Below are positions 364 through 56,697 of a DNA stretch of 64,000 bases, in pieces (within the stretch, counting starts at the first letter, position 1; each line of letters begins with the position of its first letter). The notes under the pieces are model-generated. The model had not been told where the DNA came from. It ran no database searches and saw only the letters and a list, made by a program, of their open reading frames with translations. The DNA comes from Agelas oroides (Eukaryota; Porifera; Demospongiae; Agelasida; Agelasidae). The position numbers and the translations under genes were made by a program. The stretch is taken from the NCBI GenBank assembly GCA_949130485.1, contig OX422203.1:7032710-7096709 (forward strand), in the 5' to 3' direction.

Positions 364-25162
<24,799 letters not shown>

Positions 25163-27915: not shown

Positions 27916-30900
27916 CTACTGGGGTGGGCCTGGGTAGGGAGGTGGAAGTTCATCAGAATTCTTATTCTGTGAGGTGGTTTCATCTGGTTGGATATACAGT
28001 GGGTACTGGTGGGCAGCAGAATAGGCTGGTGGTGGTGCATTCTGGAGCTCGGACTCAAGGGGTACTGTGGAGTGTGGTACACCAGTGGATATACTGGTGG
28101 GTTCTGAGCTTGAGTTCACAGTTGGTGGCTGTTGCAAGGAATAGCTGTATGCTGTGGATGGCTGCTGGACCCTTGGTCGTACATGTGATGAGTTTCTTAA
28201 CCAGCATTTTAGAAGACAGATTGCTAATCCACATATAAAACCAAAGATGCCGAAGGTAGTGCCCAAGATTATTCCCAAGCTACTGGAACTTGGGCTTGAG
28301 GGTCTGGGGGGTCTGGGGGGCCTGGAGGGCCTCGTATCTGTAGTGGTAGCAATTGTAACATACGGATGAGAGGCAAGGATAAACACACATGCATACATCA
28401 CATTCAACACATACATTACAGCCCACACCAAACACAAGGGATCAAGTTGGACAACTTACAGCTGCAGCCTCTCTCATCTCTTCCATCAGAGCAGTGTCTG
28501 ATTCTATCGCACACCTGGTAGCGAGGAATACACCGACTTCCACAACGGAGACCAGCACATGTGCCTGAATCAGTTGAAAGGGAAAAGGGAGAGAAAAAAA
28601 GAGCTAGCAAATAAATCATCACCATATTAGTAATTACGTGGGGTTCTAAATTGTGCAATTTCAGCCTTTTGGGGTACTTTTATATTTATGCAGTTCTTAA
28701 TTATGCATTCTATTATCTGGAGGCTGCTTCTGGGAGTTCATTTTCTAGACTTCAATGACAGCCTCAATCTAAGCATAAGCAAGTATGTGGCTGAGGTGTT
28801 AGGCTACTTATCATGAATACTGAAAAGCCAGTATTATCCACTTACAAACTAACCCATTCCCATGCTGGGAGAGTCTGGGAATGAGGCTATTTACAAACCA
28901 CACACAAGTGCACAAAAATGATGCATGCACAAATTTACGCATACAGATACTGATTTACATATATAGCATAATTGAAACGTATTTACGGCACTATGGTAAG
29001 CCTACATAGCTCATCTAAGTAACTGTTATGGTGCCACTATTATATGAATGAATGTTTTATGTCAGCAATAATTAATGTTTTATGTCAGCAAGCCACTTTT
29101 GGCTCCCTGCACATGAGACAGGAGCCTAGTATAGATTCATAATGCTATGTTGCAAGTCCTTACTGGATGCTGTTGTGAAGCCTGTTGTTGGGGGGTCTGT
29201 CGTTGGGGGGTCTGTTGTTGCAGTCACTGATGTCACACAACCTGCACAATGATATTATACTTGGTGAACAGATGTAGCAATGTCTCCATACTGTAACTAT
29301 GTAGCAAGAGCCTTTCCCAATGACAAAGAAGCAGTAGCGTAGCTACACCCGGGCATACCCGGGCCTGTACCCACGTAAAATTCACTGGTGCCCGGGTAAA
29401 AATAATGTGGAAAGCTTAGGTCAAATATCAAGTATTAGCATGTGCGATCTCAAGTTTCATGCGGACATGAAGTGAGCATACAGGTAAGACTGAAAGACTG
29501 AAAGAGTGGTATTTGTGACCGAAAACAGCCTCAGAAGTTATTTCATTTAGAAATTTTTCATGGCGGGAGCATGCCCCAAATTTCCTAGCAGATGCGTGTT
29601 ACGCACACACTGGGTGTGCCCATGTTGTGCCCACGTAACTTGCTCATCCTGGCTACGCCACTGCCAAGAAGGGTTACAATGGACTGTTGAACCAAAGCCA
29701 CTATCAGACCTCTACAAAGTAGAGTCAATATATAGAAGGTACATTAGTTACAAGCTCAGTGAATGTCAAGTGTTATGTCCAGTGAACCACCTATATAGAT
29801 TTTGTTTTATCTCACTATACCTCCCAGAGTCACTAGGCTCTTCCACATTATGCTCAAAAAATTACGTATTTATCCTTGCCCATTATTCCATATTATGCTC
29901 TCAAAAAACTGAATCATTTATTAACATTATACAATATTATATTTTGTTGTACACGAGGGACACTTCAATATAGTCTTCGAGAGCATGTTGCTGTTGACCT
30001 GTTGACCTGAAGACTCAAGACTCAGAATTAGTTTCCTCAAAATCTTTAGTAGTAGCTGTTTTCTGGTTTTTCGACACGTGGTTTGGGTTTAATGGTCACC
30101 ACCTCCCACGTGATCTCAAGTTTTCAAATTTTACCTATTATCCTCGCCAAGAGCGCATAAGAACGGGCGGCTAGAGTAAGAGCGTGTAACTCCATAAATT
30201 TGAAACCGGTCGGAATTATTGAACCGTACTAAAAATAGTAACACGTACTGCGCAGCTGCGCGTAGACATAAGCCATTGTTGCTAAGCATGTGACCGGGTG
30301 TTCTATTTTTAGTACAGTTTAATAACTTCGACCGGACTGTGGGCTTCTATTGGAGTTACACGCTCTTACTCTAGCCGCCCATTCTTATGCGCTCTTGTCC
30401 TCGCATAATTTCTTAGTGCTAGAAGTCTTGCTCAAAACAATGCCAGCATAATGTGGAAGAGCATAAGAGTCACACATCTTCACTTAACCTTGATTCCTTC
30501 TCAAAAGTCTGACAATAACACTATACCGTAAAAGCGGAATATTAAGCACCGGTGCTTATTTTCGAAATTAGCAGCCAGAATGGGTGCTTATATTCATGGG
30601 GTGCTAAAAAAAACGAATGTAATATTCTAGTAGCGTACAGGTGTGCGGGAACAAACTAGCTGTGATATGTTTTAGGCATAGAGGTTCTAACTCCTGTCTC
30701 ATGTCTATAGCTTTACTAGAACCATACATTCAGTCGGCAATTGATCGCTGCCAATGTAAAGCGCTTGGAACTACCGAATCTGTGAAAGGTTTTGGTAATT
30801 CCTGTTTTATCAAGAGGCCTTGCCTAAAGTTTGATTTTTATCCTGTGTCGATAGCTTGCTTACAATCGGAGATAGACAGTGGCGAAAGTTAGCTGCTACG

Positions 30901-33900
30901 TTCAAAAGGTGGCTCCGTTTGCGTGGTAACGGGTGCCTTTTTTGCGGGGTGCCTATTTTTGTATGGGTGCTTATAAACACGATGTGGTTGCTGTAATCAA
31001 AATGGGTCCCTATATTCATGGGGTGCTTATTTTGTGTGGGTACCTATTATCCCGATTTTACAGTAGTGCGTTAGCGCTAACTGATAACAATATTCATGAC
31101 TCTTACATTATACGACTCACTGTCTGAAGAGCCATTCTCTCTTTGAATGTCAAGTACCCATCTATCAGCACTGTATGCTCCACTGAACGATGCTATTGCG
31201 CCAAAGCGGTTAATCAGATACTGCAGTGATTCTGCTGTTGATCCACTACTGACATCCCTCCCATAGCCATAAGGAAGGTATCCATATCCAACTTTCTCAA
31301 CTGTCCCTACCCTCCCTGGGGTGTGGGAGACATTGGTCCTGTCTGTGTAGTAGGAACTCTGTAGCGTGAAAAGATGACAACGATATACCAGACAGACGTA
31401 GATGTTGTTTTAATTACAAATGTATTTTGGTAAGGTATAGTTCATTAAAACTGTTCTTCAAAATTGACCAGAAATTAATTTATTTTTAAAACTATTCCTC
31501 ATCATCAATCAGAAATTAAAAGCTATGATCGAGAATGGGTCAGGCCAGAAACGGAAAGAGCAGGGAATCATGTTTACTTGCTTGCTGTACACCCTGTGGA
31601 GAATCATGCTTTATAGCATTCCATTGTGTTACTATCTAGAGGAATCTATAGATATGTATAGCTTTTTAATCCTTTTGTGTTTTTTTCTAAACTAAACTAA
31701 ACTATTAAGCATAGACTATACCTTTCTTTAATTGAACTACAAACTATATTGTTCGTTTTAAGGTGCCAGGTAAGCTATCAATGCAAGCGCAATAATCAAT
31801 TCTGGTTCCCGCCCACCATTGTACCACAAGGCCACAGCTGTCTCTTTTTCTCGAGTGAGGCAAATGACCACAGCAGCTGCTTCAGTAGCTTATCAAAGAG
31901 CTACGTAGCCATACTACAAGCAACAAAAGTATGAAGGCCTGAGAAGTTTCAAAGTTGTCAATCGCTGTACACCACCAATGGCTACACCCATCCAAAAGGC
32001 CTTGGATATATTCTATCGTGACGTCTCTTGAATCAGATAAACAACTTTAGCAACTCTCTTTATCAGCTTCTTCAGTGGTTAGTTGAGGGGGTAATGTGAA
32101 GTATTCGTGACTAACAAACGCTGGGGAGAATTTGTACTGTGAAATGCCACAAAAAGTGACCTTGCAATAAGACTTTCAACTCGCTATCCATTAAGCTTTA
32201 CAGCTTATGTAAGTGATTGCACAAGTAGTGAGGTGAGATAATTTATACATGACAGATATTCCATTACAAAATCATTCACTCACCACCTTAATTACGACAC
32301 TAATAACTAACACGACAACATTTTTCATACAAAAACACCACTGATACCAGACCAATATGTAGGTAGTCATTCAAGACGAGATGACTGCTTACCACCAAAA
32401 TCCTTTCAATGGTAACCCCATTGGGCACATTGACTGTCCACTGTAGTGCTTCGTAAGAGGTGAGCACCAGTACCAGAGGTTTTGAGCTCCCACCACACAC
32501 TGTCATTTCCACAGTGGTATTTCGGTTACGAAAACTGTATGTACTTGAATACATTCCAATCACATGTACTTCATACTGGGCTCCAGTGCAGTCTGTAACA
32601 CAACTGTAGGTGGTTGGAGAGTAACTTGACCATCTATATGGTGTCCCCACAGCATTGGAAGAGCCTTCTTGCACAAGGCAGCCTCCCAGCCTTGCTGTAT
32701 TAGAGAAAGAGATGTAAAATGAGATTTCTGAAGTCCTTTAGGGCTATCATAGCTAATACATCTGTCTATTATGGTTTTGTATATAAGCACAGTCATTGCT
32801 CTTGAGAGCTACATACACTTTGCACTTTGCACTGAAAGCATATTACCATTTAAACAGGAAATGACCTATTCACAAGTGGAAGGTCTACTTCCTGCACAGT
32901 GTGCTATAATTCTTTGTCCCAAGAAATACCACACAGTATATGTTTGCATACAGCATAAAGTTGGGAAGTAGCCTAAAGCTTTACTGACAACTCATTCCTT
33001 CAAAGATACAGCCAGTAGGAGAATGTACACTTCTAGTCAAAAGAACTTGTTCAGATCTTCCAATTGTTTATTTCTCAAACTCTTTTGCAGATTAATGCAC
33101 TGCTCTGCATCTGATACTACACAACTTTCAGATACATCTTCATACATGTAGCATGTCTGCCCCCGAATGCACACATACATACTCTAGCATATGTATACTC
33201 TAGCTGATGATTTCCTCACTTACGATAGCAGTTGCAAGGTTCCCGAATTAAACTGTTTGGACATCTGCAGTATCCAGACACACATGTTGCCTCCTCTTGT
33301 CTACCTGAACAGATCAGATAATTGAAGATATTCCGGACACACTGCCGCCCACCACTGCAACTGCTTGTACCTGAAAAGAAACACACACATAGAATATCTG
33401 AAACGGATCCAATGTGCACTGCAGTGTGTTGTGATGTAACTATGAACCAGAAATCATGCCACATAACTCTGTCTGATGCATGTCAGCAAGAAGCTCCGCA
33501 GTGTAGCCTACTCTGCCTTTAATGTAGCATGCTGCTATAATAGTTCCAGGCCGTAATAGATCTAAATCCTTAGCTCTTCCATACACTTCTATCACACATC
33601 ACATGATAGAACAATTGCATTATCATACAGACATGCACTGAAGTTGAGTGACACTTGCTAGTGCTCACCTTGTGGTGACGATGGTTCTGTGCAACTTGCT
33701 GGTGCCACGGTAGAGGTGAGTAGAGGAGTGGAGATAGTGGGAGGAGGAGTCACTGACACACAACCTGTGAACAATAGAGGGATCAACTTTGCATGGCCTG
33801 GGTTTAGAGTAAACACTGAGTCCAAGAATATATACATACAGTCTCCAATACCATACACCACACTTGCAATGTGAATAAACATACCCGAGCCTGCATTTCT

Positions 33901-34932
33901 TCTGTGGATGTTCAGTCTCCAGGAGGTAGCTCGGTATGTTCCAGTGAAGGAAGCCACAGGACCAAAACGGTTGGCAATATACTGTAAAACTTTGATGGTG
34001 TTCCTGCTCTCTGACCCATAAGCATATGAAAGAACTGCTTGGCTTGGTTTCTCTACTGCTAATACTCTTCCAGGTGTAAAGGAGACCTCACTTCTTACTA
34101 CATAGAAACCGCCCTTGAAAAAGGAAGACCACGCAGGATTATATAGTAAAACAGCGGAATAGTTATACATTAGAAAAAATTGAAGCACTAGTGTCAGTGT
34201 GGATTGTTCATCAGAGGGGGTGAAGACAGCAAGTCAGTTAGAAAGGGTCTGCACAGTGATAATGTTGCTATTTAGTGTAGGCTTACCACAATGACTGTAT
34301 CAATCACCACATCAGTGGGGATGCTCAGAATCCACCTGATTGGTTCGTAAGACAGCAACACAAGGATGAGAGGCTTGGAGCTCTGACCCTGGACGTTTAC
34401 AGACACATATGCATTGCGAATCCTGTGGCTGAATCCATTGTCATAACTCTCATAGCATCCAACTACATGGACATCATAGTTACAATTATCATTTGCTACA
34501 CAGCTGTACACTCTCCTTGGTTGACTGTCTCGACTGTGGGTAGGTGTTCCTATACTGTCGCCAGCATCTGCCTCAATGTGACAACTTCCAAATGTAGCTG
34601 CATGGAATAGTGTAGTTAAGAAGTATAATTTATATAAGCTGAGTTTATATAATTCTGGTTCACCGTACAGCTACATAAATTACCACTATTTACCAGCCTA
34701 ACACTAAACCAGTCCTCACTAATTGTCTAGCTACAAAACTTACGTAGCTGGGACTTTGCCAGACCACCGCACAGGAGAACTGAGGGAAGGAGGTGAATGC
34801 AAGATTATTGCCAAAATCAAGTATAGTTACAGTGCAGCCTCAATATCAATTAATCGCCAGTTGCATATTTTAGATGTATAATTCGCATGTGCTCAGCATG
34901 GACTCACCAAGTAACAATTGAATTGCAGTCAT
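27916..34932 (-). CDS. Gene A: modular receptor with two copies of an unrecognised ectodomain, Cys-rich module, LDLa, TM and PPxY tail
   Basis: Exons in transcript order: 34908-34932, 34744-34779, 34287-34597, 33885-34113, 33669-33764, 33224-33370, 32393-32694, 31121-31358, 29164-29241, 28460-28564, 27916-28337. All are GT-AG, phases agree, total 1989 nt (662 aa). Order: signal peptide (~1-20); ectodomain copy 1 (21-200); Pro/Thr linker; eight-Cys module (~233-281); ectodomain copy 2 (282-461); Thr/Pro linker; LDLa repeat (~488-522, [16 protein letters not shown], calcium-site acidic residues present); Pro-rich stalk; one TM helix (~545-568); cytoplasmic tail with APPPAY and LPPPY. PPxY motifs are ligands of NEDD4-type WW domains. 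A ~250 bp MITE lies in the long intron before exon 9. Function unknown; a cell-surface receptor is inferred. Confidence 0.82.
28460..28564 (-). CDS. Gene A LDL-receptor class A exon
   Basis: One symmetrical phase 1-1 exon of 105 nt codes a complete LDLa repeat. Six cysteines and the C-terminal DGRDE calcium cluster are visible. The same exon occurs at 44232-44336 (gene B) and, six bases shorter, at 50142-50240 (gene C). Confidence 0.85.
29336..29665 (+). mobile_element. Putative non-autonomous DNA transposon (GTAGCGTAGC termini)
   Basis: The left end, CAGTAGCGTAGCTACACCCGGGC, is roughly complementary to the right end ...CCTGGCTACGCCACTGCC. Similar CAGTGGCGTAGG termini occur at 35808 and a related terminus near 53390. 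No ORF of note. Ends and target duplication are not firmly defined. Confidence 0.4.
30148..30397 (+). mobile_element. MITE family 1, copy 3 (7 bp TSD)
   Basis: A 250 bp element with long terminal inverted repeats beginning CAAGAGCGCATAAGAAC and ending in the complement. It is flanked by the exact 7 bp duplication TCCTCGC (30141-30147 and 30398-30404). It is inverted relative to the copies at 6405 and 6934 and has no coding capacity. It lies in gene A's intron between exons 8 and 9. Confidence 0.85.
30526..31063 (+). mobile_element. Putative TA-flanked MITE
   Basis: The left end (CCGTAAAAGCGGAATATTAA) and the complement of the right end (CTGTAAAATCGGGATAATAG) form imperfect inverted repeats of ~25 bp, each next to TA. 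The interior has repeated GGTGCTTAT/GGGTGCTTAT motifs and no convincing gene. The TA target suggests a Tc1/mariner-like mobiliser (inference). Confidence 0.5.
33224..33370 (-). CDS. Gene A eight-cysteine module exon
   Basis: A symmetrical phase 1-1 exon of 147 nt codes 49 residues with eight cysteines in the pattern SSC, RQC, LIC, ATC, GYCRC, EPCNC. The copy in gene B (47328-47474) is the same length and differs at only a few residues. I do not recognise the fold; it is a small disulphide-rich module between the two ectodomain copies. Confidence 0.7.
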
Positions 34933-35271
34933 TTTAAATGCATATCCGAATAAACGCTAGCCTGGTAAATATATACCCCACGGTTTACGATATTACGGAC
35001 GGTTATGACGTCAGGGTCATAGTGTCAATTAATGATCACAGGGCCAAGGGTCAGACACGTCAGATCCAGCTCAGCGTACCGGGTATATACGGATGTGCCG
35101 GGGTCAGAGATTATTCCCTATGGACCTAGTCTCAACTGGTCACGAGACTACATTCATAGATAATATACCTCCTCCCCCGGGATTGGTCACGAGACTATAC
35201 ATTGGACCCTACTACATGCCAGTGCAGTGCAGCAGTCTCGTGCCCAGAGAGGGTACGGTGGAGTCTAGTCT

Positions 35272-35939
35272 GGGTCACTCTAAAAGTAGGAACGAGGAAA
35301 TGGGGAAATGAGAAGAAAGTACATTGCATTTCACTCAGCAAAAGGCTGCTGGTGTTTTGTGACTGCAGTCATCAAATGTGATGAGAAAGTCAATGTCCCT
35401 CCATGCATGCATGCACTCACTGAGAGATCATCTTGCCTGACAAAGGGCATTGCATCACGGTCTGCAAGCTAGTTCTATGTAGTATGTTCTTCACTTCTGG
35501 CAGTTTGTTAGCTTTCTTGAAGTTTGTTGAATCTGTGTCATACCAACTTTATTTTATACAAGGAGACATTTTGAGGCTTCTTCATGCAGTTGCTTGCATA
35601 ATTTATTATGGATTATATTTGTCTCACATACAGCACTATTATTTAAAACAGCATGTACTATTCAAACTGCATCTATAATAGAAGTTCACAAAATGCCTCT
35701 TTGCAGTCATTCTCCAGTGGATACACACACCAACTCTGTAGAGAATATAATTACTGTGTGTGAATTATAGTTTGCATGCACTGAGTGCAGGAGGGAATAT
35801 ACAACAGCAGTGGCGTAGGAAAGACTTTTTGATTGGGGGGGGGGGGGGGGCACAGTTTAAAACTACACATAGAGTAGTGAGCAATTTATATAACAATTTA
35901 TGAAAATGTGTGTGGAGAGGGGGGGGGCACATGCCCCTG

Positions 35940-35998
<59 letters not shown>

Positions 35999-36937: not shown

Positions 36938-37104
36938 ATGTCAGAGTCGGACATCACACAAGCGAGTCAGGAAGAAGAGGCCCTGGAGAATCGTGGCGGA
37001 AGCAGCCTCGTGGTAAACCTCACTCGGCAGCTAGTGCAAACTCTGGAAGGCAGTGTAGTCAGTGTAGGGTCACAGGGCACGGATGAGACCCGTGCGGGGC
37101 CAAG
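36938..37104 (+). CDS. Possible orphan first exon
   Basis: ATG at 36938 opens about 56 codons (MSESDITQASQEEEALENRG and onward) with protein-like composition, followed by the donor-like CCAA|GTAAGT near 37105. No downstream exon could be linked, and the next kilobases are repeats. It may be a first exon of a lost or distant gene. Confidence 0.25.
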
Positions 37105-39601: not shown

Positions 39602-40165
39602 ATGATGAATCTGTCAAATTCTACAGCCACCACTTCAACTTACAGCAGAGGAACTGAAGATCATAGTCCATCACCTCTACATGCGGGTGTAGTATTTGGA
39701 ATAGTTATCATTGTCATTGTATTGATTGTGACACTGCTGCTACTGTTGTGCAAAGCCATCAAGTCCACATATCCACAGATGCATACAAACTGGACTGCTG
39801 ATATTTTCAGACATCACACAAATGAAAGCAGGAGGAAATCTCGTAGTGTTGTCAACCACAGTACCGAACAGAAGCATCAGGTGTATACCAGTAGCAGACC
39901 AGAGTTTCAGCTGGTAGTAAGAGAACAGAAACTCTGTGGATCTCACAATCACAATCGAAGAAATGAGAATCAAAGCAGCTTTGCAGCCCCTGATGACCAG
40001 TATAAATCAAGTCTCCAAGAGAAACCACCCCCAGCTTACTCTGAGGTCATCCTAAATTCAGCCTACCCGTCCCACTTTACAAACCAGCAAACAATCAATG
40101 GTGTTCTCACTGACACTCGTAAACCTGCCTGTTCAGATTACCCACCACCTACACTCCCAGCTTGA
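39602..40165 (+). CDS. Gene G: short single-pass membrane protein with PPxY motif
   Basis: 187 aa encoded in one exon. N-terminal NLS/NST sequons, one TM helix (VIIVIVLIVTLLLLLC region, residues ~30-52), a basic juxtamembrane region, and a cytoplasmic tail with KPPPAYSEVI and a terminal YPPPTLPA. It starts ATGATG; the second ATG matches the start of paralogue F. The 3' region ends with AATAAA at 40725-40730. The PPxY motif and TM-plus-tail layout resemble the tails of the - strand genes A-E, although overall sequence differs. Function not known; WW-domain binding is inferred from the motif. Confidence 0.65.
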   Translation: MMNLSNSTATTSTYSRGTEDHSPSPLHAGVVFGIVIIVIVLIVTLLLLLCKAIKSTYPQMHTNWTADIFRHHTNESRRKSRSVVNHSTEQKHQVYTSSRPEFQLVVREQKLCGSHNHNRRNENQSSFAAPDDQYKSSLQEKPPPAYSEVILNSAYPSHFTNQQTINGVLTDTRKPACSDYPPPTLPA

Positions 40166-42585: not shown

Positions 42586-42823
42586 ATGGTAGTTTTCACT
42601 GTAAACAAGGTATGTTATTAGTAAACATGTAAAGTAATTTACACTCTAAACAAGGTAGCTTATAGGAAACATCATTTTACAACTTCCTGTGGTATATGGA
42701 ACAGAATCTACAGAACCTACAACTTCCTGTCAGTATATGGAAAATAATACCCACCTGTTACCACAGAAACAAGGGTGAAGTGGAGTATATGTATTGGTTA
42801 TACTCCTCATATAGGTAGAGGAG

Positions 42824-42939
42824 TGTTCTTCATCATGGGTCCCATTCTGTGAGGTGGCTTCATCTGGCTGGGTATACACTGCACGGGTACTGGTGCATGG
42901 GAAGTAGAGTAGGCTGGTAGTGGTGCATTCTGGAGCTGC
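42824..42939 (-). pseudogene. Relic of a PPxY-tail exon
   Basis: The - strand carries recognisable pieces of the gene A-E cytoplasmic tail ([11 protein letters not shown] and flanks), but with frame breaks and a small hairpin transposon inserted at its 5' side (42949-43037). No signal, LDLa or TM exon is linked to it. It lies downstream of gene G in the convergent position seen for F/A. Confidence 0.65.
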
Positions 42940-42948
42940 ATGGACAGC

Positions 42949-43037
42949 TAGCCTTGTTCCCAGGCTCTCCCCTCGCCCCGACGAAAAATAAAAACTATTT
43001 TCCGTTGGGGCGAGGGGAGAGCCTGGGAATGAGGCTA
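42949..43037 (+). mobile_element. Perfect-hairpin micro-element with 9 bp TSD (89 bp)
   Basis: TAGCCTTGTTCCCAGGCTCT at the left pairs with AGAGCCTGGGAATGAGGCTA at the right around an A/T-rich loop. It is flanked by the direct duplication ATGGACAGC (42940-42948 and 43038-43046). It is the same family as 63431-63493. Confidence 0.8.
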
Positions 43038-43630
43038 ATGGACAGCATCTACCATACAGTAATACCATCACAGTGCAGTGAATAATTTCACGGATTGGGA
43101 TAGTGTTCCATATACTGGACGGGTGTCACGATACAATGGTTCAAAGGTGGACATGCATAGTCATAACCCGTGCATGGGGTCAGAATGGGTACAAAGCTCA
43201 AAACAAAGGGAACAGTACAGTGTGAACAAATTTATCTTGGTGTCAAGGAAACGAGAGGGTTTACAAGTCTTATATTAATGCATGGCTGTTAAGAGCCGGT
43301 GATAAACAAATTAAGAAGCCCACTACCCACCATCCTGTTTATGATCACTTACAGTATGCAAGTGATCATAAACTGGGCCTATATAGGAATGAGGCTATAG
43401 GGCACATGCACAATACTATGTTTGGTAAATCCAAATGCCCATGCAATTCAAGATCAAGAGTGCATGATGACGCCATTTTTATTGCAATGAAAATGACATC
43501 ATCATGCGCTCTTGTCAAGAGTGGCGTGTTGCACAGCGAAATGAGAAACTGATCAATCAAGTACAAAATGACATAGTTTTAGGAGAATATTATAATATTA
43601 TGGGGAAACAACTCTGACGTCATTTGGAAG

Positions 43631-46600
43631 CTAATCAAGGTAGGGAGGTGGGGGTTCTTTGATGCATTCTTCATCATAGGAAGGTGGAGCTTCTGCAGTG
43701 GGTTCTTCACCCTGAAAAGTGTTCTTATTCTGTGAGGTGGCGTCATCTGGCTGGATATACAGTGGGTACTGGTGGGCAGCAGAATAGTCTGGTGGTGGTG
43801 CATTCTGGAGCTCGGACTCAAGAGGTACTGTGGAGTGTGATACACCAGTGGATATACTGGTGGGTTCTGAGCTTGAGTTCACAGTTGGTGGCTGGTCCAA
43901 TGAATAACTGTATGTTGTGGATGGCTGCTGGACCCTTGGTGGTACATTTGATGAGTGACTTTGTGAGCATATAAAGTTCTTTACACGAGCGATCATAATT
44001 CCACATACAAAAATTAAGACACTTGTTACACCAAAGGTAGTGCCAAGGATGACTCCCAAGTTACTGCCCCCGGAACTTGGTCTGGAGGTGCTGGTATCTG
44101 CAGTGGTAACAATTATAGCAACGATCAACTGCCTGGGTAAGAGGCTGCATGCATAGGAACAAGGATGTACACATGCATGGCACACATACAGTCTGCATAC
44201 CAACATAAAGGGATCAAGTTTGACAACTTACAGCTGCAGCCTCTCTCATCTCTTCCATCAGAGCAGTGTCTGATTCTATCGCACACCTGGTAGCGAGGAA
44301 TACAACGACTTCCACAACGAAGACCAGCACATGTGCCTGAATCAGTTGAAAAGGGGAGTGGATTAATATCAATGTATCTGCATGCCAGGTAGCTGTGTGC
44401 CAATATTATTGGTTTAGGTCCTTACTAGATGTTCCAAAGCTTCTTCTTGGAGGGTCGGTTGTTCCAAAGCTTCTTCTTGGTGGTTCTGTTGTTGCAGTCA
44501 CTGATGTCACACAACCTGTACAATGATATTATACTTGTTGAACAGATGTAGCAAAATCACAGTCTCCATACTCGATACTGAAATGTAACAGAGAATTCTA
44601 GCTCTCCAAATAGTTGAAATTTGGGTCTGCACATGTAAGAGACCTCAGACTTCTGCAAAGCCAAGGCAGTGCACAGAAAGTAGAAAACAAAAAATGAGTA
44701 GGGTCACCAGAATCAGTTCTGAACATCACTATAAGTAGCTATAGTGCACTATCTCACGATCTAACACAACAGTATAATAACTCACTGTTTGTAGAGCCAT
44801 TCTCTCTTTGAATGTCAAGTACCCATCTATCAGCATTGTATGCTCCACTGAACGATGCTATTGCGCCAAAGCGGTTAATCAGATACTGCAGTGATTCTGC
44901 TGTGAATCCACGACTGCCATCCCTCCCATAGCCATAAGGAAGGTATCCATATCCAACTTTCTCAACTGTCTCTACCCTCCCTGGGGTATGGGAGACATTG
45001 GTCCTGTCTGTGTAGTAGGAACTCTGATCAGAAGAGAAAAGAATGAGACGAATGATACAGCAAAACCAGTAATTGTCCATATGTAGGTACTACTGGTAGA
45101 TGTAAGAAACAAGGTGACTCTACTTACCACTAAAACCCTCTCAATAGTAACCCCGTTGGGCACATTGACAGTCCACTGTTGTGCTCGATAAGAGATCAGT
45201 ACTAACACAAGAGGTTTTGAGCTATGGCCACAGACAGTCATCTCCACAGTCACATTTTGGTCACGAAAATTGTATAGATTTGAATACATTCCAATCACAT
45301 GCACTTCATACTGGGCTCCAGTGCAGTCTGTAACACAACTGTAGGTGGTTGGGGAGCGACTTGACCATCTATAATCATTATATGGTGTCCCCACAGCATT
45401 GGAAGAGTCTTCTTGCACAAGGCAGCCTCCCAGCCTTGCTGTATTAGAGAAAGAGATGTAAAATGAGGTTACTGAAGTCCTTTAGGACATATATTAGCTA
45501 ATACATCTAACAGATGCTTTAGCACTTGGTGATGGATCCTCAACAGTGTCTCATACTCTGAGCTTCATCAACACAGTATGAAAAGTAGTGTTTATAATCT
45601 CAGGTCACATACCCACAGCTGTATAAATATACTGTGTACTGGAAAATATCACGAGTCTGTTGCCAATGCAATACAGCCAACAGACGAGTTCCAGTACACA
45701 ATATATAATGTATTAATTTATCATGTACTAAAGTAACTTTGTAAACTACAATTGTATACATGTAAAAGCTGTAGCGTACATGAATGGAAACATATAATTG
45801 TGTATATGTAAACTATTTTGTTTACAAAGGTGTTGTCCCATAACAATGAGCCTGTATACAGTGGAACCCCTCTATAACGGACACCATTGGAACCCAACAT
45901 TTTGTCTGTTATAGCGAGGTGTCCCTAACTCAGGGGTTTCTGGTATATTTCCAGTAGGCGTGGTATGCGTAATCAGGCTGTTGAGCACAACGTGGCTGCG
46001 TTTTCAGAGCTTTCCTTTGCTGTACGCTGGCAGGGAATGCTCCGCAGAGGCTAGTACTACGAGTAACAGCGCTAATCTAATGGCAAGTTGTTAACTACAG
46101 CAGCGATGGTGGACTATCTTGCAAAAAAGGTTGACAAGTGTCCGCTAAATCGGAGTCGTTAAGTATTGTTTGCGTACAATTAAGCTGTCCGTTATACGGA
46201 GTAGAGAGGTGGCCGCGAGGCACGGGTTTCTTAAGTACCATTCTGAATGGCGATGCAGTCGGGACCAAGGTGAGTGTCCACCATAGACAGGGTGGCCGCT
46301 CATCAGAGGTGGTCGTTAAGAGGGGTTCCACTGTAGTTACAGTGCAATATTTATTGTGTACTTATCATGTAAGCTCGATGTGATAGCTCTGTAGACTACG
46401 TGATAACTTTGTAGACATTGCCCAGGGGGGCGTGATATGGTAAAATATCACCCTTGTTTGGAGCAGTGCTTCTCACATATGTTTTGAATGGGTATATCAC
46501 ACTGACTTTAGTACAGGATAAAACCAGATGTCAGTTTGTGATCTGTGTGTCTATCCTGTCAAATATCAGCCAACAAGAAACAAAGAAACAATGTGATATC

Positions 46601-49166
46601 CCATGGCATCCCACTTTGGAGCAGAAGATGCAAGTAGCTAACTACAAGATTCATGTCCAAAGAATGCCAAAAGGCATGCAAAATGATATAGATGGGAGTG
46701 AAGGCAAATAGTTACAGCTACAAAGCCTAATCCTTACATTTTTTTTTACACATTTGTGATAGGGGAAATACTGGACTTTGGTCTTGACTCCTCACGATTC
46801 AGGATAAAACTTTTCTAACTACTTACTCACAGCTATTTGCAAAGAATCTTTAGACAATAAACGCTCAGATCTGCAAATTAACCTAAAGGAAGGCAACAGG
46901 AAATTGCCCATTGACAGGTCCCAAGGAATGTATACTACACAGTGTTTGTATGCATTCTCTGTCCCAAGAGATGCTAAACAGACCTAGCAGTATCACATGT
47001 CAGCACTTTTGACACTTGAGACTTCAGTCCCAATGAAATACCACACATTCTGTATACAAAGTCAGGAAGTATAGGCTAGACAGCTATTACACAGTAATGG
47101 TATGTTTGTGAACACACTTCCTTTGGCAATGGATGAAAATATATATACTGTTAGACATTGTATGGTTCTAGGCAACCATAAATGCTAAGAAATCAGATCA
47201 AAGACATAGTTTGGCATTATCTCATCGATACTGTAATTATGTGTGTTCTACTGCCTACTTGGGCATGTGCAACTCCATACATTTTAGCATGCACACAAAC
47301 TAAAGTTGCATGTAAGCTTTCACTTACGATAGCAGTTACAAGGTTCCCGAATGGGACTGGATAGACATCTGCAGTATCCAGACACACATGTTGCCTCTGT
47401 TGGGCCACCCGAACAGATCAGATAATTGAAGATATTCCGGACACACTGCCGCCCACCACTGCAACTGCTTGTACCTGCAGAAGAGAAACACACACATAGA
47501 ATATCTGAAACGGATCCACTGTGCAGTGTGTTGTGATGTAACTATGAACCAGAAATCATGCCACATAACTCTGTCTGATGCATGTCAGCAAGAAGCTCCA
47601 CAGTGTAGCCTACTCTGCCTTTAATGTAGCATGCTGCTAGTTCTAGGCCGTAATAGATCTAAATCTTCTCCTACCTTAGCTTTTGCATATACACTTCTGT
47701 TACACATCACATGATAGAACAATTGCATAATCATACATACAGACATGCACTGAAGTCGAGTGACACTTGCTAGTGCTCACCTTGTGGTGATGAGGGTTCT
47801 GTGCAACTTGCTGGTGCCACGGTAGAGGTGAATAGAGGAGTGGAGATAGTGGGAGGAGGAGTCACTGACACACAACCTGTGAACAATAGAGGGATCAACT
47901 TTGCATGGCCTGGGTTTAGAGTAAACAATGAGTCCAAGAATATATACATACAGTCTCCAATACCATACCACACTTGCAATGTGAATAAACATACCCAAAT
48001 CTGCATTTCTTCTGTTAATGTTCAGTCTCCAGGAGGTAGCTCGGTATGTTCCAGTGAAAGAAGCCACAGGACCAAAACGGTTGGCAATATACTGCAAAAC
48101 TTTGATAGTGTCCCTACTGTCACTATAACCTGCTGATCCATGGGCATCAGGAAGAATGGTTGGGCTCGGTTTCTCTACAGACAGCACTCTTCCAGGTGAG
48201 AACGAGACCTCACTTCTTGCTACATAGTAACCACCCTTGAAAAGAAAATATGAAACAGGTAAGTATATTTATCATAAGCACAATATAGAGCATCATGGTG
48301 GAGTCAGTGCAGTTAGAGAGGGAGTGGAAATAGCAAACCATGGCATGCCTAAAGGGACTGATAGCATAATGATGCTGTTTAGTGCTTACCAGAATCACTG
48401 TATCAATCACCACATTACTGGAGATGCCCAAACTCCACCTCATTGGCCTGTACGTTAGTAATACGAGAATGAGAGGCTTGGAGCTCTGACCCTGGACATT
48501 TATGGACACATGTGAACTACTGAGACGTCTGTTGCTGAGATACTGACTCTCATAGCAGCCAACCACGTGGACATCATAGTTACAGTTGTCATTAGCAACA
48601 CAACTGTACACTGTACTTAGTCCTCCATTGCCTCGGCGACTGTAAGTAGGTGTTCCTACGCTGTTGTTGGCATCTGCCCCAATGCGACAACTTCCAAACG
48701 TAGCTGCATGTAAGAGTGCGTAGTTTATAATAATAAGCGAGTATACATGCATTTATCAGACCTTGCTGAACAATAGCTATAGAAACTTACGTAGCTGGGA
48801 ATTTGCTAGACCACCACACAGGATAATTACTGGGAAGGAGAGTATAAATTATTTGACAAAACTAAGTTAGAGAAATACCTTCATTGCATATATTGCAGAG
48901 GCGAGTATAACAACTGTGTTCGTTTTTGTGTTGTCCCCCTTTAACAGGGTGCACTCCTTATTAGCATATGGCTATTTTGTGCATCCATTGCCTTTTGCAT
49001 AAAGTTTTATATAAAAAATAAAAAAATAAAAAAATTAAAAAAAAAACAATACAGTGGACTTGTACACAAATAACTTAGCCTATTAATACTACTATTACCA
49101 TGGGCCAGCCTCAATTGCACAATAAATTTGCACGAACTCACCAAGTAACAATTGAACAGCGGCCAT
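43631..49166 (-). CDS. Gene B: full-length paralogue of gene A
   Basis: Exons in transcript order: 49142-49166, 48791-48829, 48390-48703, 47995-48235, 47781-47876, 47328-47474, 45128-45438, 44786-45023, 44426-44515, 44232-44336, 43631-44097. Total 2073 nt, 690 aa, all phases consistent. It has the same module order as gene A: signal peptide (MAAVQLLL...), ectodomain 1, linker, eight-Cys module, ectodomain 2, linker, LDLa, stalk, TM, tail. The linker before LDLa has two PPRRSFGT repeats instead of TTDPP. The tail has three PPxY motifs (APPPDY, APPSY, PPPPY), one more than gene A. Introns are also alignable with gene A, so the duplication is recent. A TA-flanked DNA element sits in the intron between modules. 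Confidence 0.82.
44232..44336 (-). CDS. Gene B LDL-receptor class A exon
   Basis: A 105 nt phase 1-1 exon nearly identical to the gene A LDLa exon. Six cysteines and the SDGRDE calcium cluster are intact. Confidence 0.85.
45859..46333 (+). mobile_element. Tc1/mariner-type MITE (CAGTGGAACCCC termini)
   Basis: A 475 bp element with ~26 bp inverted repeats starting CAGTGGAACCCCTCT, flanked by TA on each side, typical of Tc1/mariner-mobilised MITEs. It lies in gene B's intron between exons 6 and 7. It has no coding potential I would trust. A fragment with the same terminus appears near 15678-15695. Confidence 0.75.
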
Positions 49167-49533
49167 ATCGAGCTTGATCCGAGTGCGTAAACGCTATGAT
49201 TGCGCTCTTATAATATGTGTGTAAGGTTATGACGTCAGGGTCATATGCGCAGCGCAGCGCAGTTAAGTTCATCTCAGGCGCAGCGGCGCCCCCGCATATC
49301 GCATCAGATCATGATATCATATTAGGGTCATGACGTCATATGCATACTGTAAATGATCATAAACTGGGCGCCTTGGAATGAGGCTAGGGCACATGCACAA
49401 AATTCCCACATAGCTAATTCAAGATGGATGGATAGTGATGAGTTGCACAGTGATCAATCAAGTACAAAATGACATAGTTCCAGAAGAATATAAAACATGA
49501 CTGTAGGGAAGGAATTCTGAAGTCATTTGGAAG

Positions 49534-50826
49534 CTAATCAAGGTAGGGAGGTGGGGGTTCTTTGATGTGTTCTTCATCATAGGAAGGTGGAGCTTTTGCA
49601 GTGGGTTCTTCACCCTGAAAAGTGTTCTTATTCTGTGAGGTGGCTTCATCTGGCTGGGTGTATGCAGGGTACTGGTGGGCAGTAGAATAGTCTGGTGGTG
49701 GTGCATTCTGGAGCTCTGACTCAAGGGGTATTGTGGAGTGTGGTACACCAGTGGAGGTGCTAGTGGCTTCTGAGCTTGAGTTCACAGTTGGTGGCTGGTC
49801 CAATGAATAGCTGTGTGTTGTGGATGGCTGCTGGACCCTTGGTTGTACATTTGATGAGTGGCTTTGTGAGCGCATACAGTTCCTTACAAATATAATCATC
49901 ATTCCACATACAAAAAGTAAGAAACTTATCATGCCCAAGATAGAGCCAATGATTATTCCAAAGTTGCTGCCCCCGGAACTTGGTCTCGAGGGTCTGGAGG
50001 TGCTGGTATCTGCAGTGGCAACAATTATAAACAATCAACTGAAGCTGTCTGGGTGAGAGGCTGGGAACAGGGATGTACACATGCATGGCACACATACAGT
50101 CTGCATACCAACATAAAAAGGGATCAAGTTGGACAACTTACAGCTGCAGCCTCTCTCATCTCTTCCATCCGAGCATTGTCTGATTCTATCGCACACCTGG
50201 TAGTGAGGAATACACCGACTTCCACAACGAAAACATGTGCCTGAATCAGTTTAAAAGGGGGAAGTAAATACCAGCCAAGTAGTGTAGCTAGGTATGTGCC
50301 AATACTATTTTAGTGCAGGTTCTCACTGGATACTGTTCCAAAACTTTCTGTTGGGGGGTCTGTTGTTGGGGGGTCTGTTGTTGCAGTCACTGATGTCACA
50401 ATGATATTATACTTGGTGAACAGATGCATGTAGCAAAATCAGTCTCAATTATATAGATGGGAGATTTGACAAATACAGTTTAACTATGCAGTCTGAGGTA
50501 ATCAAATTCCCTACTATTGCATGGGGCACTATCTTCAGTCAACCCCCCCCATATAATCCTCATCAACTGCCCAATAGGGGGGTAGTGGGGCATAACATTG
50601 ATAGGCGCATAAACAATAGCTATAGACTTACGTAGCTGGGAATTTGACAGACCACCACACAGGAGAATTACTGCATGAGAAGGGGAGTATATTAAATTTG
50701 GCGAAACTATTATAAAGTAATACAATACTCTGAGCTACCCTCAATTATTAATCAAATTGACCTGTTGCACAATAAAAATTCGCATGTACTGCATGACTCA
50801 CCAAGTAACAATTGAATAGCAGCCAT
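49534..50826 (-). CDS. Gene C: short paralogue, signal peptide + LDLa + TM + PPxY tail
   Basis: Exons in transcript order: 50802-50826, 50632-50670, 50142-50240, 49534-50009; total 639 nt, 212 aa, phases consistent. It keeps the signal-peptide exons, one LDLa repeat (two residues shorter than in A/B, six Cys kept), the TM helix and a tail with three PPxY motifs (PPPDY, APPSY, PPPPY). Both ectodomain copies and the eight-Cys module are absent. A linker exon like that of gene A remains at 50342-50395, but an 11-base deletion has removed its normal acceptor, so it is probably skipped. A weak upstream-free AG could still include it in frame. Confidence 0.7.
50478..50612 (+). repeat. Dispersed repeat, copy 1
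   Basis: GAGGTAATCAAATTCC ... CATCTTCAGTCAA ... CATCAACTGCCCAATA, homologous to 63736-63895 in a PRPF18 intron. It lies in gene C's intron between exons 2 and 3. Confidence 0.75.
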
Positions 50827-51159
50827 ATCTGAGTACGTAAACGCTCCGATAGCGCGATCTATATATTTGTGCGGTTATGATGTCAGGGTCATGATGTCAG
50901 GGTCATGACGTCAGGGTCATAGCAGTTCGTTCATGCGCAGTTCATCTCGAACGATCTCGAGCATATGCGCATATCCAGGGTCATGACGTCAGGGTCAATC
51001 AATGTCATGTCCGGCCGACTCGCCCGGGTCAAAGGTTATCCGGCTTTGCACGCATGACATGACAGGAGTTAGACTCTCACGTGCGGATCGGAGAGTGAGA
51101 GTCTGGCCTGCGAGACTAGACCGGAGTACGAGTCCAGAAATTCGTTCAGAGGACAGAAG

Positions 51160-51430
51160 CAAGGTGTACGTGGCCAGACTTCCAACCAGCAAGCAGAGAA
51201 CACGAACCCAATAGACCTCACAAACAAAAGACTGAATGAAAATGCAATCAGTTTTGCACAGAAGAGTGTGTAAGGCCTGATTGTGAACGTAAAATCAAGT
51301 CTGCAAGAGGAACCGTCCCCAGCTCATCCGAAATCCAGCCTGACCCCCCTTACAAGCCAGCAAATGATCAATGGTGCTCTCACTGACTTGTGAAGCCTGC
51401 CTGTTCAGCCTGCACCCATCACCCAACTTA
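51160..51430 (+). pseudogene. 5'-truncated relic of a gene F/G copy
   Basis: Sequence homologous to the 3' coding part of F/G (GTGTACGTGGCCAGACTTCC..., AAATCAAGTCTGCAAGAGG, CAAATGATCAATGGTG, ACTTGTGAAGCCTGCCTGTT) with stops, frameshifts and no TM segment. It lies convergent to gene D, as F does to gene A. Confidence 0.65.
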
Positions 51431-51695
51431 TACAGTGAAAACCAGTAGCTTCTAATGTAGAATGCCATAGTTAGCCTGATAGTGAAATGTACTATATACT
51501 TGTTCCCAGGCAACTCCCAGATTTTATCTCACAGATTCTACCGATTTTTCTCCACAGCTGCAAGATGAAATCTTGGAGTGCCTGGGAACAAGGCTACTTT
51601 ACTATTGGTATATATTTGGTGTTGAAAATGTCAAGCAAGAGCACCTCTATACTGATACGTATAGATATATACATGAAGGGCATATACACATACAA

Positions 51696-52459
51696 CTACG
51701 GGGTTTGGCTAGGGTAGGGAGGTGGGGGTTCTTTGATGGGTTCTTCATCATAGGAAGGTGGAGCTTCTGCAGTGGGTTCTTCAATGTGTTCTCCATTGAC
51801 AGTCTTATTCTGTGAGGTGGCTTCATCTGGCTGGGTATACACAGGGTACTGGTGGGCAGTAGAATAGGCTGGTGGAGGTACATTCTGGAGCTCTGACTCA
51901 AGGGGTACTGTGGAGTGTGGTAAACCAGTGGATGTATTGGTGGCTTCTGCGATTGTGTAGCTTGGCTCAGGATGTGGCTGCAAGGGATGGCCGTATGTTG
52001 TAGATGGCAGCTGGACCCTTGGTGACATTGACCGTTGTTCTTGTGATCTCACAATGTGTTTATAGAGTTTCACATAAAAAGCACAACAAAAACAGCAACA
52101 AATTACAATTGTAACAATGGTTGAAACAATGCCAAGGATGGTTCCAATCAGGCCATTGCCAGAGTCAGATGTCTGGGCATTTACCAAACCAGTACACATG
52201 AAGACAGCTGCAATATAGTGAGGAGAAAGAAGTATAGGTCATACAATTAAAATCTTCAGTTTAAACACTGTAGTATGGAAAGTGTGGATAGCCACGATTT
52301 TTAATACTACCGGTACCAACCATGTAGCCTACTATTTCAAGCTCAAACTGAAGCCTGCATGTCTAGATCTGTGCAATACTTGTGCACAAACTGAACTGCA
52401 TGTTATCGGATCTCTCTGCAATAGTGCTACTCACCAAGTAACAGCTGGACAGCATCCAT
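51696..52459 (-). CDS. Gene D: minimal paralogue, signal peptide + TM + PPxY tail
   Basis: Two exons, 52435-52459 and 51696-52207, total 537 nt (178 aa). The mature outside part is only about 10 residues (AQTSDSGNG...), followed directly by a TM helix containing several Cys (ICCCFCC) and a tail with VPPPAY, APPSY and PPPPYP. It shares the signal-exon start (MDAVQLLL) and tail with genes A-C but lacks any ectodomain. It could act as a signalling adaptor-like subunit or as a tail donor. Function unknown. Confidence 0.7.
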
Positions 52460-55400
52460 CTTTCAGTAAAACCTTCGCAGTGCAGTGAATAACGGTTGGT
52501 ATCGAGGTTGGGATAGTGTCGGTGTCACGGTACAAAGGTTCATGGGTTCAAAGGTGATAATGTATTCATAACCATGCATGCATGCATGTGGCCAGAGTGG
52601 GGTATATTGAATACTCTACTTCAGATGCATATACTAGGCGAATGCGGTGCATTGTGGAGCGAGGGTGAGCAAGTGTATGGAGTTACACTGGCAGTTAAAT
52701 ATTCAAAGCCCTTCCTCCCGAAGTGCTCATAGTTATGGATGTTTATACATAGGCCTATGTAATGAAATTATGTTTACATAGGTAATGAAATTATTAACTA
52801 GAGCTAGGAGGTTGAACAGCGTAAACAAGACACAAAATATGTATATTAATATATATTCACATAGGCGTAGGAAGCAAATGTGAAGTGTAGAGGCCATGCT
52901 GTGCCACGCGAAGCGCTGCAAAAAATAAAAGGGAAATAATTTGGCCGCGCATAGCGCGGCGGCGAATTTTTTCACAGTGTGCACCTTTAGACTGCAAAAT
53001 AAAGCCTTTTTTTCAACGGTGTATAATATTCTTGCCTCGTTCGCAGACCTTACAAACCCTCCAGTACAAGATTCAATTTATGTGGAAAACAGATTATACT
53101 GACTTCGTCGTCGTTCCCAGGAGAGCGCCCGGCTAGCTTTCGTCGCTTGTAGTAGTCTCTTTGAAAATCTGCATTAGCTTCGTACCGAGCCATCTCACAG
53201 TGTATACTTTAATCGGAAATGTACGCATGTAACTGCATATGAGACTGATGCAACGAAGAAGCTGCTTGACTTTAGCCTCGCTCCCAGACAACGAGGCTAG
53301 CTTGAGCCATAGCTAACTTAGCAGGTTATGAATATTAATTTACGGCCTAAAAAGTGTAGCGGCCAAAGCCGCTACGGCCGCTACGGTTCCTACGCCACTG
53401 ATTTAGCATTTTGAGTAACACATCCAAGCTTTGACTGTCATTCAAAACCCCAGGGTGACCCACATGGAGAGTACTCATTCACCCCACTCACCCTGTTTGC
53501 ATGGTTGCATAGAGTTGTGCGTTCGAGGGGGTTCGAGCGAACCCCCCTTTTGGCCTTCAAAAGATTTTATATACACCGCTGTACATTTTAAAGTGCCCTA
53601 CCGTTTGAAATTGGACCACTAGTCTCGCTGCTATTGAGAATCACCGCCGTCCAAACGAGTGTGGTTGCAGCTAGTTCGTTCATGGAGGACAAGCACGGAA
53701 CGCGCGCGTAAGCTATTTTTACGCCGCAGCGATGAATGTAGTAGAGCCTTGGTAGAAGTGTAGTACAGTCAAGCAGAGCCAAGTGGAGCCATGGTAGAGT
53801 GTAGTAGAGTGCAGTAGAGTCAACTAGAGAAGGACGCGCGTAAATACATGCGTAAATACATGCGTAAATAAAACGCTATTTCAGGCGCTCGAGAGTTCAC
53901 CAGTTTCCTTATAGTGATGTCACCTCACCTGCTGTTCTGTCAACCTTAGTACCTTCTCTCTATTCGAAGTCAGCTGGCTTAGTAAATACATACGTGGACA
54001 GCCAAAAATTGGATGCAATACTCCGCGAGCCATGTAGCTACTGCGGCTCTGCTTCTGTCCCAAAATGGCCTCAGAAGCAATCTCAGAGCATCTAATTTCT
54101 AAAATTTCCTGGGGAAGCATGCCTCCAGACCCCCCTAGTTTTGTATGCTTATGCATGCATACATACACATCAGACATCCATGTAACCCCCCTTCTAAAAA
54201 TCCTGGCTACGGGCCTGCTGTGCATATATACAACACAAAATTGGGTTGAGAAGTTAAGTGAAAAAAACTGTTGCCGCATACATGCATATTTAGATTGCAG
54301 AAAGGGTAAAGGCTGACCATGGGGACAGACAATCTTCAGTCTTGCTCTAATTATCCCCCTCTCTTTGTCATGGCACAAAGGAGCTAGAGTCTGGAAATGA
54401 GACCAATGTAGCCATGTTTGCATGAGATTTATGCATCGTGGCTTGGATGGAACACTGCATGCTGAAACAGTCTCAGGTTGTTCCCCGTGTCTTGCTCTGT
54501 CACATTCCAACCTGGCATCTCTTTAGTGGTAGTCTCAATCTTTCACGCTGACGGGCACTCATCTGCTGTATATCTGGCATCTCTTTCAGCAGCACTCTCA
54601 GCTGCTAACCTATGCCTGCATGATGCTGCAGGGTTCTCACATGCTGCAGTCTGGCGTCTCTTTCAGCAGTAGTTTCAGCTGCCAACGGTTGACGCTGACG
54701 GGTTCTCACATGCTGCAGTCTGGCGTCTCTTTCAGCAGTAGTTTCAGCTGCCAACGGTTGACGCTGACGGGTTCTCACATGCTGCAATCTGGCGTCTCTT
54801 TCAGCAGTAGCCAACGGTTGACGCTGACGGGTTCTCACATGCTGCAATCTGGCGTCTCTTTCAGCAGTAGTTTCAGCTGCTAACCTATGATGCTGCAGGG
54901 TTCTCTGACATGCTGCAGTCTGGCGTCTCTTTCAGCAGTAGTTTTAGCTGCCAACCTATGATGCTGCAGGGTTCTCTAGCTGACATGCATGCTGCAGTCT
55001 GGCGTCTCTTTCAGCAGTATAGTCTCAGCTGCCAACCTATGATGCTGCAGGGTTCTCATCTGCTGTAATCTGGCGTCTCGTTCATTGGCAGTCTACTCCT
55101 ATAATTCCTCCGCCTTCTCACTTTCCTGTTTTTTTTCGTCTGTCCGGTCTGCCGCGCGTCGAGTCCGATCCTCTCTCGTTCTCTCCTCTTAGGCCACTAT
55201 TTATTGTAAATTAGTTTCTATATCTGGGACTTTCTCTGATGTTCATGCGGGCGGGCACGGCCATTACCATTATTCGTCGATCTCAATAAAGTTGGTCTCC
55301 TGCATGGACTCGAGAGGTCATACCCCCTGTGGAAAGAAGCACGAAATATGGCGTCTGTGGGGTGAGCGCTCCGATGTTTTCGGAAAGGAGACATATTTTA

Positions 55401-55574
55401 GCTGGCTTACAGTGCGCTGAGTAGTTCTAAATCGACGTGCAACTCAGCATTACCGACGTGGGGCTCGCTCACGCTCGCCCCAATTATCCCTAAGCTTTCA
55501 GTGTTGAAAGCCACCTAAAGGTTCAAGCTAAATAATTATTCCTCTCTCCTATAGCTAACATGCGGCACACTCAC
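52460..55574 (+). other. Intergenic between genes D and E, mostly transposon debris
   Basis: It contains GCGTAGG-type termini (52864, 53390), a repeat with - strand frames like PVARIFRRGV (near 54200), and the Helitron-like repeat remnant. No intact gene recognised. Confidence 0.5.
54490..55095 (-). pseudogene. Remnant of a Helitron-type N-terminal repeat region
   Basis: On the - strand, ~69 bp tandem units translate to AERDARLQHVRTRQRQPLAA-type repeats of 23 residues. Such ERxARLQ repeats are known from the N-terminal part of Helitron/PIF1-like helicase proteins. Units are interrupted by stops and length changes, and no Rep or helicase motif follows. The link to Helitrons is from memory of the repeat style and is moderate. 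Confidence 0.45.
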
Positions 55575-55603
55575 CAAGCAACAACTGCATGGACAGGGTC
55601 CAT
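55575..55603 (-). pseudogene. Orphan signal-peptide exon relic
   Basis: Similar to the shared first exon of D/E (ATGGA..CTGTCCA then GTTGTTGCTTG|GTGAGT) but with a 4-base insertion that breaks the frame from the first ATG. The second ATG at 55590 would restore MQLLL in phase 1. No matching downstream exon precedes gene D, so it is probably a leftover of a deleted copy. Confidence 0.5.
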
Positions 55604-55962
55604 CTGATAACCTCGGCAGTGAGTACTATAGTACATATATGTGGGCTTATGACTAGGGACAAGACGCATCTATAACACCGCACTTCATGTGCCCAAACGA
55701 TTTGCTGCTAGTCTCACGAAGCCAGACTCTCACAGTCTGCGATAACCGTAACATCGACTCAGTCCTCCGAAGTGTCAACCACATAACAACATAGATAGTA
55801 GAGTACTAGTGTATCGTCACAATAACATTCATATTGGTAGAAAACAACAAACACAAATAATGATAGAGCTCAATAATTAAGGGTGCAGACTGCAATAGTA
55901 GACTTATATACAGAAATTGTATAGCTATCCAGTTACAACAGTGACAGGCTGCTCTCTATGAT

Positions 55963-56697
55963 TTACTCAGGATAGGAAGGTGGAGGTTCTGCAGTGGGTT
56001 CTTCACTGTGAAAAGTGTTCTTATTCTGTGAGGTGGCTTCATCTGGCTGGGTGTATACAGGGTACTGGTGGGCAGCAGAATAGTCTGGTGGTGGTGCATT
56101 CTGGAGCTCTGACTCAAGAGGCACTGTGGAGTGTGGTACACCATTGGTGGTTGGGTTCACAGTTGGTGGCTGTTCCAATGAATAAATAACATGACTTCCT
56201 GTGGTGACAGGTGGATCTCGAGTTACTTGCTGTGCTCGTGATCTCAATGCCTGGCTGCGCTTTTGGACTAAATAGATTCTGAGGCAACATACTGCCACCG
56301 CTATCAGAATAGTTACAGCTGAAAGGATGCCAGTAACAAGACCAATGGTTCTTCCAGTGCTAGTAGTAAATGTCTGAGCATTTACCAGACCAATACACAT
56401 GAGGACAGCTGTGGATGTAAGGAGAGAGGACAAAAGAGAGTAGCTATACATAATGAAAGTTGCGTAGACTGATTGTTCTGCATGTGAGCTGAGCATAAAA
56501 TTATAACCCTAGTAGCTAGCTACAGTCTCAATGTTTCACTACATGAATGTAGCTATATACATGCAACTGTGGGTATAGGTGACTATACTGGCTTCAGTTT
56601 GAGCTAAACCAATGAAACAGTAGAAAGAGCAATTAAGTACACTCTGCCTGTATAATACTGTGAAATACTCACCAAGTAACAACTGGACAGCATCCAT
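55963..56697 (-). CDS. Gene E: minimal paralogue, signal peptide + TM + PPxY tail
   Basis: Two exons, 56673-56697 and 55963-56408, total 471 nt (156 aa). It has the same layout as gene D: MDAVQLLL signal start, NAQTFTTSTGRT short outside stub, TM helix, basic RSQALRSRAQ stretch, and a tail with PPPDY and PPPSYP. The tail's last PPPPY motif is missing. Tail identity to genes B and C is much higher than TM identity. Confidence 0.7.

Follow-up and report, generated by a model that had tools for sequence, protein, structure and literature searches.

A tandem cluster in the sponge Agelas oroides appears to encode a family of type I membrane proteins in which different ectodomains sit on one shared cytoplasmic tail. 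We analyzed a 64,000-nucleotide stretch of contig OX422203.1 (assembly GCA_949130485.1, positions 7,032,710 to 7,096,709; hereafter the window), in which five - strand genes, A to E, exactly fill positions 27916..56697. In our preferred reading, which we put at a probability of roughly 0.6, A, B and C would be capture receptors and D and E short adaptors, joined by a tail that recruits E3 ubiquitin ligases of the NEDD4 type. Expression, membrane topology, E3 binding, endocytic sorting and ligand capture are predicted from sequence throughout.

Gene models and their genomic relatives

The genes were rebuilt by hand with GT-AG introns, and the frame from ATG to stop is open in all five. The models bear out what an initial annotation of the window had proposed: five - strand genes with a common signal exon ending in phase 1, a shared PPxY tail and differing heads (a long set in A and B, LDLa only in C, none in D and E). 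Together with a self-comparison of the window they also support its view of one family with exchangeable phase-1 ectodomain exons, gene C being explained by exon loss. The first exon is always 25 nucleotides long and ends in phase 1, and the last encodes the transmembrane (TM) segment and a tail with two or three PPxY motifs. Internal exons are phase 1-1 with the exception of the large module (~180 residues), which is encoded by two exons joined in phase 0 (1-0 and 0-1). A and B have 11 exons each in identical order: 25-nucleotide signal, second signal, module (two exons), Ser/Thr, Cys-rich, module (two exons), Ser/Thr, LDLa, and TM plus tail. In A, B and C, LDLa comes ahead of the TM exon. 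D and E have their second signal and TM exons merged into one. The features of the cluster are as follows.

27916..34932, - strand: gene A, 11 exons, 662 residues
34932-34908 and 34779-34744, - strand: gene A signal exons
33885..34597 (34597-34287 + 34113-33885), - strand: gene A module 1, orphan-domain-type, two exons
33764-33669 and 29241-29164, - strand: gene A Ser/Thr exons
33370-33224, - strand: gene A Cys-rich exon
31121..32694 (32694-32393 + 31358-31121), - strand: gene A module 2, orphan-domain-type, two exons
28564-28460, - strand: gene A LDLa exon
28337-27916, - strand: gene A TM + tail exon (PPAY, PPPY)
43631..49166, - strand: gene B, 11 exons, 690 residues
49166-49142 and 48829-48791, - strand: gene B signal exons
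47995..48703 (48703-48390 + 48235-47995), - strand: gene B module 1, orphan-domain-type, two exons
47876-47781 and 44515-44426, - strand: gene B Ser/Thr exons
47474-47328, - strand: gene B Cys-rich exon
44786..45438 (45438-45128 + 45023-44786), - strand: gene B module 2, orphan-domain-type, two exons
44336-44232, - strand: gene B LDLa exon
44097-43631, - strand: gene B TM + tail exon (PPDY, PPSY, PPPY)
49534..50826, - strand: gene C, 4 exons used, 212 residues, signal-LDLa-TM-tail
50826-50802 and 50670-50632, - strand: gene C signal exons
50240-50142, - strand: gene C LDLa exon
50009-49534, - strand: gene C TM + tail exon (PPDY, PPSY, PPPY)
51696..52459, - strand: gene D, 2 exons (52459-52435, 52207-51696), 178 residues; signal, ~12-residue ectodomain, TM, tail (PPAY, PPSY, PPPY)
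55963..56697, - strand: gene E, 2 exons (56697-56673, 56408-55963), 156 residues; signal, short ectodomain, TM, tail (PPDY, PPSY)

The tails carry two PPxY motifs in A, three each in B, C and D, and two in E. When the residues of each cytosolic tail were shuffled 20,000 times, P for these counts was 0.016 (A), 0.00035 (B), 0.0002 (C), 0.0011 (D) and 0.0073 (E), the excess in A alone being modest. Given a signal peptide followed by a TM segment, the motifs would lie on the cytosolic side, as in clients and adaptors of NEDD4-type ligases. The constant part of the family is thus the signal exon plus the TM/tail exon, whose PPxY motifs are expected to engage WW domains in HECT ubiquitin ligases of the NEDD4 type. 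The PPxY DNA pattern was uninformative genome-wide (637 places versus 976 in the reversed control).

The flanks of the window, searched for 10 kb each way, yielded no exons of the family. The tail of D, used as a query against the genome, gave 12 matches at E-values up to 1, namely the tails of the five window genes, an intact D/E-like gene on a second contig (C10), a relic within the window and five weak places. Weak tail matches on contigs C17 and C73 (E-values 0.006 and 0.1; 9e-5 in a smaller set) covered the TM region and contained an in-frame stop. With module 1 of B as the query, 14 exon matches were obtained, corresponding to the four modules of A and B and to three modules of a single gene on a third contig (C9), two exons each.

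L029:6556-7268: D/E-like gene on contig C10, intact, 159 residues
L027:5399 to L028:4857: C9 gene, three modules, two Cys-rich exons

The exon order of the C9 gene is signal, Cys-rich, module, Ser/Thr, Cys-rich, module, Ser/Thr, module, short exon and TM, with phases as in A and B, and its TM region differs from those of the window genes. Its last exon, read in frame, would probably end in SPPPQYEEL, giving a C-terminal PPQY; alternatively, the TM exon could end at its own stop without the PPQY exon.

Exon loss and selection

In the self-comparison, the signal exons of gene C match those of A, and its Ser/Thr, LDLa and tail region matches A as well as B, intron sequence included; no block between C and A or B covers the modules. 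In the Ser/Thr exon of C, 11 nucleotides present in A have been deleted between two TTGTG repeats, and the splice acceptor is gone. With the acceptor lost, C reads as signal-LDLa-TM-tail only if this exon is skipped; skipping keeps the frame, and a model that included the exon was rejected as out of frame. We infer that the exon is skipped. The LDLa module of C scores 23.4 bits against a Pfam cut-off of 24.1. Gene C therefore looks like an A/B-type gene stripped of its heads, and it would represent a preserved intermediate of exon loss.

First and second module copies are 42% identical; from gene to gene, A and B share 73% and 89% identity in their modules. The ratio of nonsynonymous to synonymous divergence (dN/dS) between A and B was 0.27 and 0.36 for the two modules, 0 for LDLa, with zero amino acid changes, and 0.69 for the cytosolic tail, indicating that both modules are under purifying selection, stronger than that on the tails.

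The initial annotation had put the likeness of the tails down to conservation. The tails are indeed alike, and the distal tail, defined as HSTVPLES to the end, is the best conserved stretch in an alignment of all five. Conservation alone does not account for this, given the tail dN/dS of 0.69 and distal silent sites that are far less diverged than those nearer the TM segment. Silent divergence was tested in 12 of the 15 pairs formed by the five genes and the C10 copy, those of A, B and C with the C10 copy being left out. For seven pairs (A, B or C versus D or E, and D versus E), synonymous divergence (dS) was 0.10-0.55 in the distal tail but rose to 0.71-2.06 on the TM side of that exon (Fisher p 0.003 to 3e-7); the TM-side part of D and E includes the fused second signal exon, to which nothing in the final exon of A, B or C corresponds, and this inflates the values between these groups but not that for D-E. 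D and the C10 copy gave 0.34 (distal) versus 0.97 (TM-side), p 0.009. The two parts did not differ significantly in four of the 12 pairs, the three within A, B and C and the pair of E with the C10 copy. For A-B this cut gave 0.37 (TM-side) and 0.23 (distal); with another cut of the exon, dS was 0.95 in the TM part alone versus 0.15 in the cytosolic tail. Between the C10 copy and E, dN/dS was 1.6 in the TM-side part and 0.35 in the distal tail. The unequal silent divergence would be best explained by gene conversion acting on the distal tail, with constraint on silent sites and poor alignment of the diverged part as alternatives, and the likeness of the tails would then partly reflect concerted evolution.

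On the proposed reading, A and B, with two beta-rich modules of the orphan-domain superfamily (see below), a Cys-rich unit and LDLa, would probably capture a secreted or membrane partner, and C would have LDLa as its sole ectodomain module. D, E and the C10 copy have almost no ectodomain and are probably adaptors in the membrane that recruit the ligase to other cargo, as reported for CYYR1, PMEPA1 and, less uniformly, Commissureless-type proteins. Control of Robo by Commissureless is reported not to require Nedd4 binding, so that a PPxY motif alone leaves the mechanism unsettled.

The family could instead be purely one of adaptors, in which the tail matters and the modules are bystanders undergoing loss from A/B through C to D/E. 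The intact frames of D, E and the C10 copy despite their missing modules, the conservation of the distal tail across all five, and gene C, which lacks the modules and one acceptor, are all in keeping with this. However, the stronger purifying selection on the A/B modules than on the tails and the retention of three modules in the separate C9 gene, next to a different TM region, make it rather unlikely.

The large module, its bacterial relatives and the orphan domain

The initial annotation missed that the building block of the long ectodomain set is a domain also found in bacteria and that the cluster has relatives on two further contigs. Scanning the modules with Pfam and NCBIfam and searching PDB sequences with a single module returned nothing useful. 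Compared with the bacterial domain, the window module is 33-41% identical across matched segments (hhalign 98.9%). Copies occur in scattered bacterial proteins (L033-L035, where the domain is C-terminal, and L039-L051); in L033-L035 it is preceded by a region with beta-propeller matches, which exceed the Pfam cut-off only in L035 (PQQ_2). Of 16 open frames, 13 went into the bacterial profile (A5), all except those of L047 and L051 and the second of the L049 frames, L044 having yielded none; a mixed profile (A6) drew on five of seven animal modules and eight of 13 bacterial domains. The bacterial domain has no introns and lacks the ~33-residue Cys-containing N-terminal extension of the window modules. 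No relative was confirmed on viral contigs, either of the window module (51 pattern-matching stretches) or of the bacterial domain (31 stretches), and no plasmid with the L034 domain was found.

In a comparison made without a reversed-profile control, the bacterial form matched the orphan domain of betaglycan and endoglin in both fold and sequence. No Pfam or NCBIfam name was found for it, and it is an apparently unnamed relative of that domain; the main ectodomain part of A and B likewise looks like a relative of the orphan domain that is shared with bacteria. To our knowledge, the orphan domain owes its name to a lack of known relatives. No description of it in sponges or bacteria was found in the accessible open-licence literature. 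We tentatively suggest, as a possibility somewhat short of likely, that the domain did not arise in vertebrates but is old and shared with bacteria, and that as a tandem phase-1 module with a NEDD4-recruiting PPxY tail it forms an independent class of ligand-capture receptor here, the tail being homogenized by gene conversion while heads come and go. Relatives in bacteria and in receptors far from vertebrates would give the orphan domain an ancestry and natural comparison proteins, and whether TGF-beta capture is the original or a late use of the fold would become testable.

A and B might, alternatively, be true co-receptors of the TGF-beta superfamily, their tandem modules holding a TGF-beta/BMP-type ligand and the PPxY tail coupling capture to receptor turnover. 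According to PMC11865472, the orphan domains of vertebrates have TGF-beta and BMP9/10 as ligands; the fold therefore points to a growth-factor ligand without proving one. The tandem modules recall OD1 and OD2, and TGF-beta receptors are stated in PMC13187141 to be as old as sponges. Nonetheless, no ZP domain was listed when A, B and the C9 protein (the latter without its last exon) were scanned with Pfam, the modules are ~80 residues apart with a Cys-rich unit between them, and a fold also present in bacteria does not imply such a ligand. Betaglycan and endoglin themselves use different ligand surfaces, again according to PMC11865472. We regard this explanation as unlikely.

Relics, companion genes and known families

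The window also contains remnants of the family and companion genes on the + strand, which make up a second family of PPxY membrane proteins.

42820..43143, - strand: relic of a sixth, D-like copy, 5' region and distal tail
55575..55603, - strand: orphan signal exon between E and D, 81% identical to the E region over 37 nucleotides (55569-55605)
39602..40165, + strand: companion gene, single exon, 187 residues, one TM stretch, PPPAY tail
26641..27066, + strand: companion gene copy 2, 141-residue open frame, 62% identity with the first copy across 151 columns, PPPAY end absent
51223..51387, + strand: decayed companion fragment with internal stop, 43% over 60 columns

The relic is split by a ~90-nucleotide foldback element, resembling a miniature inverted-repeat transposable element, at about 42949-43038, flanked on both sides by GCTGTCCA. 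No tail exon for the orphan signal exon was found between it and D. The companion copies lie past the 3' ends of B (39602-40165), A (26641-27066) and D (51223-51387), and this family was probably duplicated together with the receptors. Tandem-repeat arrays were seen in the self-comparison at 22006-22728, 24061-24646 and 54500-55098.

Variable heads on a constant tail held alike by gene conversion would also suit diversified recognition receptors of the allorecognition or immune type, as would tandem duplication with relics and the signs of concerted tail evolution; this is very unlikely, as the copies are few and the A/B modules, 73% and 89% identical and under purifying selection, are not hypervariable. 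It is scarcely credible that the exons of A to E belong to just one or two transcription units whose alternative ectodomain exons are joined to the same ends, as their common strand and compatible phase-1 junctions would allow: every gene has both a start exon and a stop-ending tail exon of its own, and the C10 copy occurs by itself at another genomic location.

Among known families, Commissureless was rejected for D (17 bits against the Pfam Comm cut-off of 27, E-value 0.007; in a scan of the five tails the Comm model matched one, E-value 0.0097), and CYYR1 for C (17 bits against 31, E-value 0.007). In D and E, the stretch linking the presumed signal peptide to the TM segment is free of Cys; the six-Cys ectodomain of Shisa-like/CYYR1 proteins is thus missing. 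Matches of the TM regions to assorted Pfam families (best TMEM52, E-value 0.0012) and of the C9 protein to the bacterial phospholipase C C-terminal model (22.7 bits, cut-off 24.4) were taken as compositional or chance. LDLRAD4 combines LDLa, TM and two PPxY motifs, a plan that gene C appears to share, with an LDLa score below the Pfam cut-off. PPNR is the Smad-interaction motif of LDLRAD4 and PMEPA1; by eye it is absent from the five tails and the C10 tail, and membership in that family was rejected by this one motif. Betaglycan/endoglin membership was rejected because the scans listed no ZP domain.

The claim of the initial annotation that no described family has this combination holds in part: none with an orphan-domain-type ectodomain and a PPxY adaptor tail was found in the accessible open-licence literature, but each half has precedents, the tail in CYYR1, PRRG4/Comm and PMEPA1 and the module in betaglycan/endoglin. 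Commissureless, PRRG4, CYYR1 and Shisa-like proteins are likewise short single-pass proteins with PPxY or LPxY motifs. Published work reports that PMEPA1 binds NEDD4-2 through its PY motifs, that CYYR1 binds WWP1 through PPxY and directs it to lysosomes, and that Comm, PRRG and yeast Rcr proteins, which share this build, are linked to membrane-protein trafficking; the extended Comm motif given there, LPSYDEAL, is resembled by PPSYDEE of B, C and D. Compared with betaglycan and endoglin, A and B have their modules set apart by Ser/Thr and Cys-rich exons and add LDLa and a PPxY tail, and the cluster as a whole offers a compact, clear-cut example of heads being exchanged while the tail stays constant.
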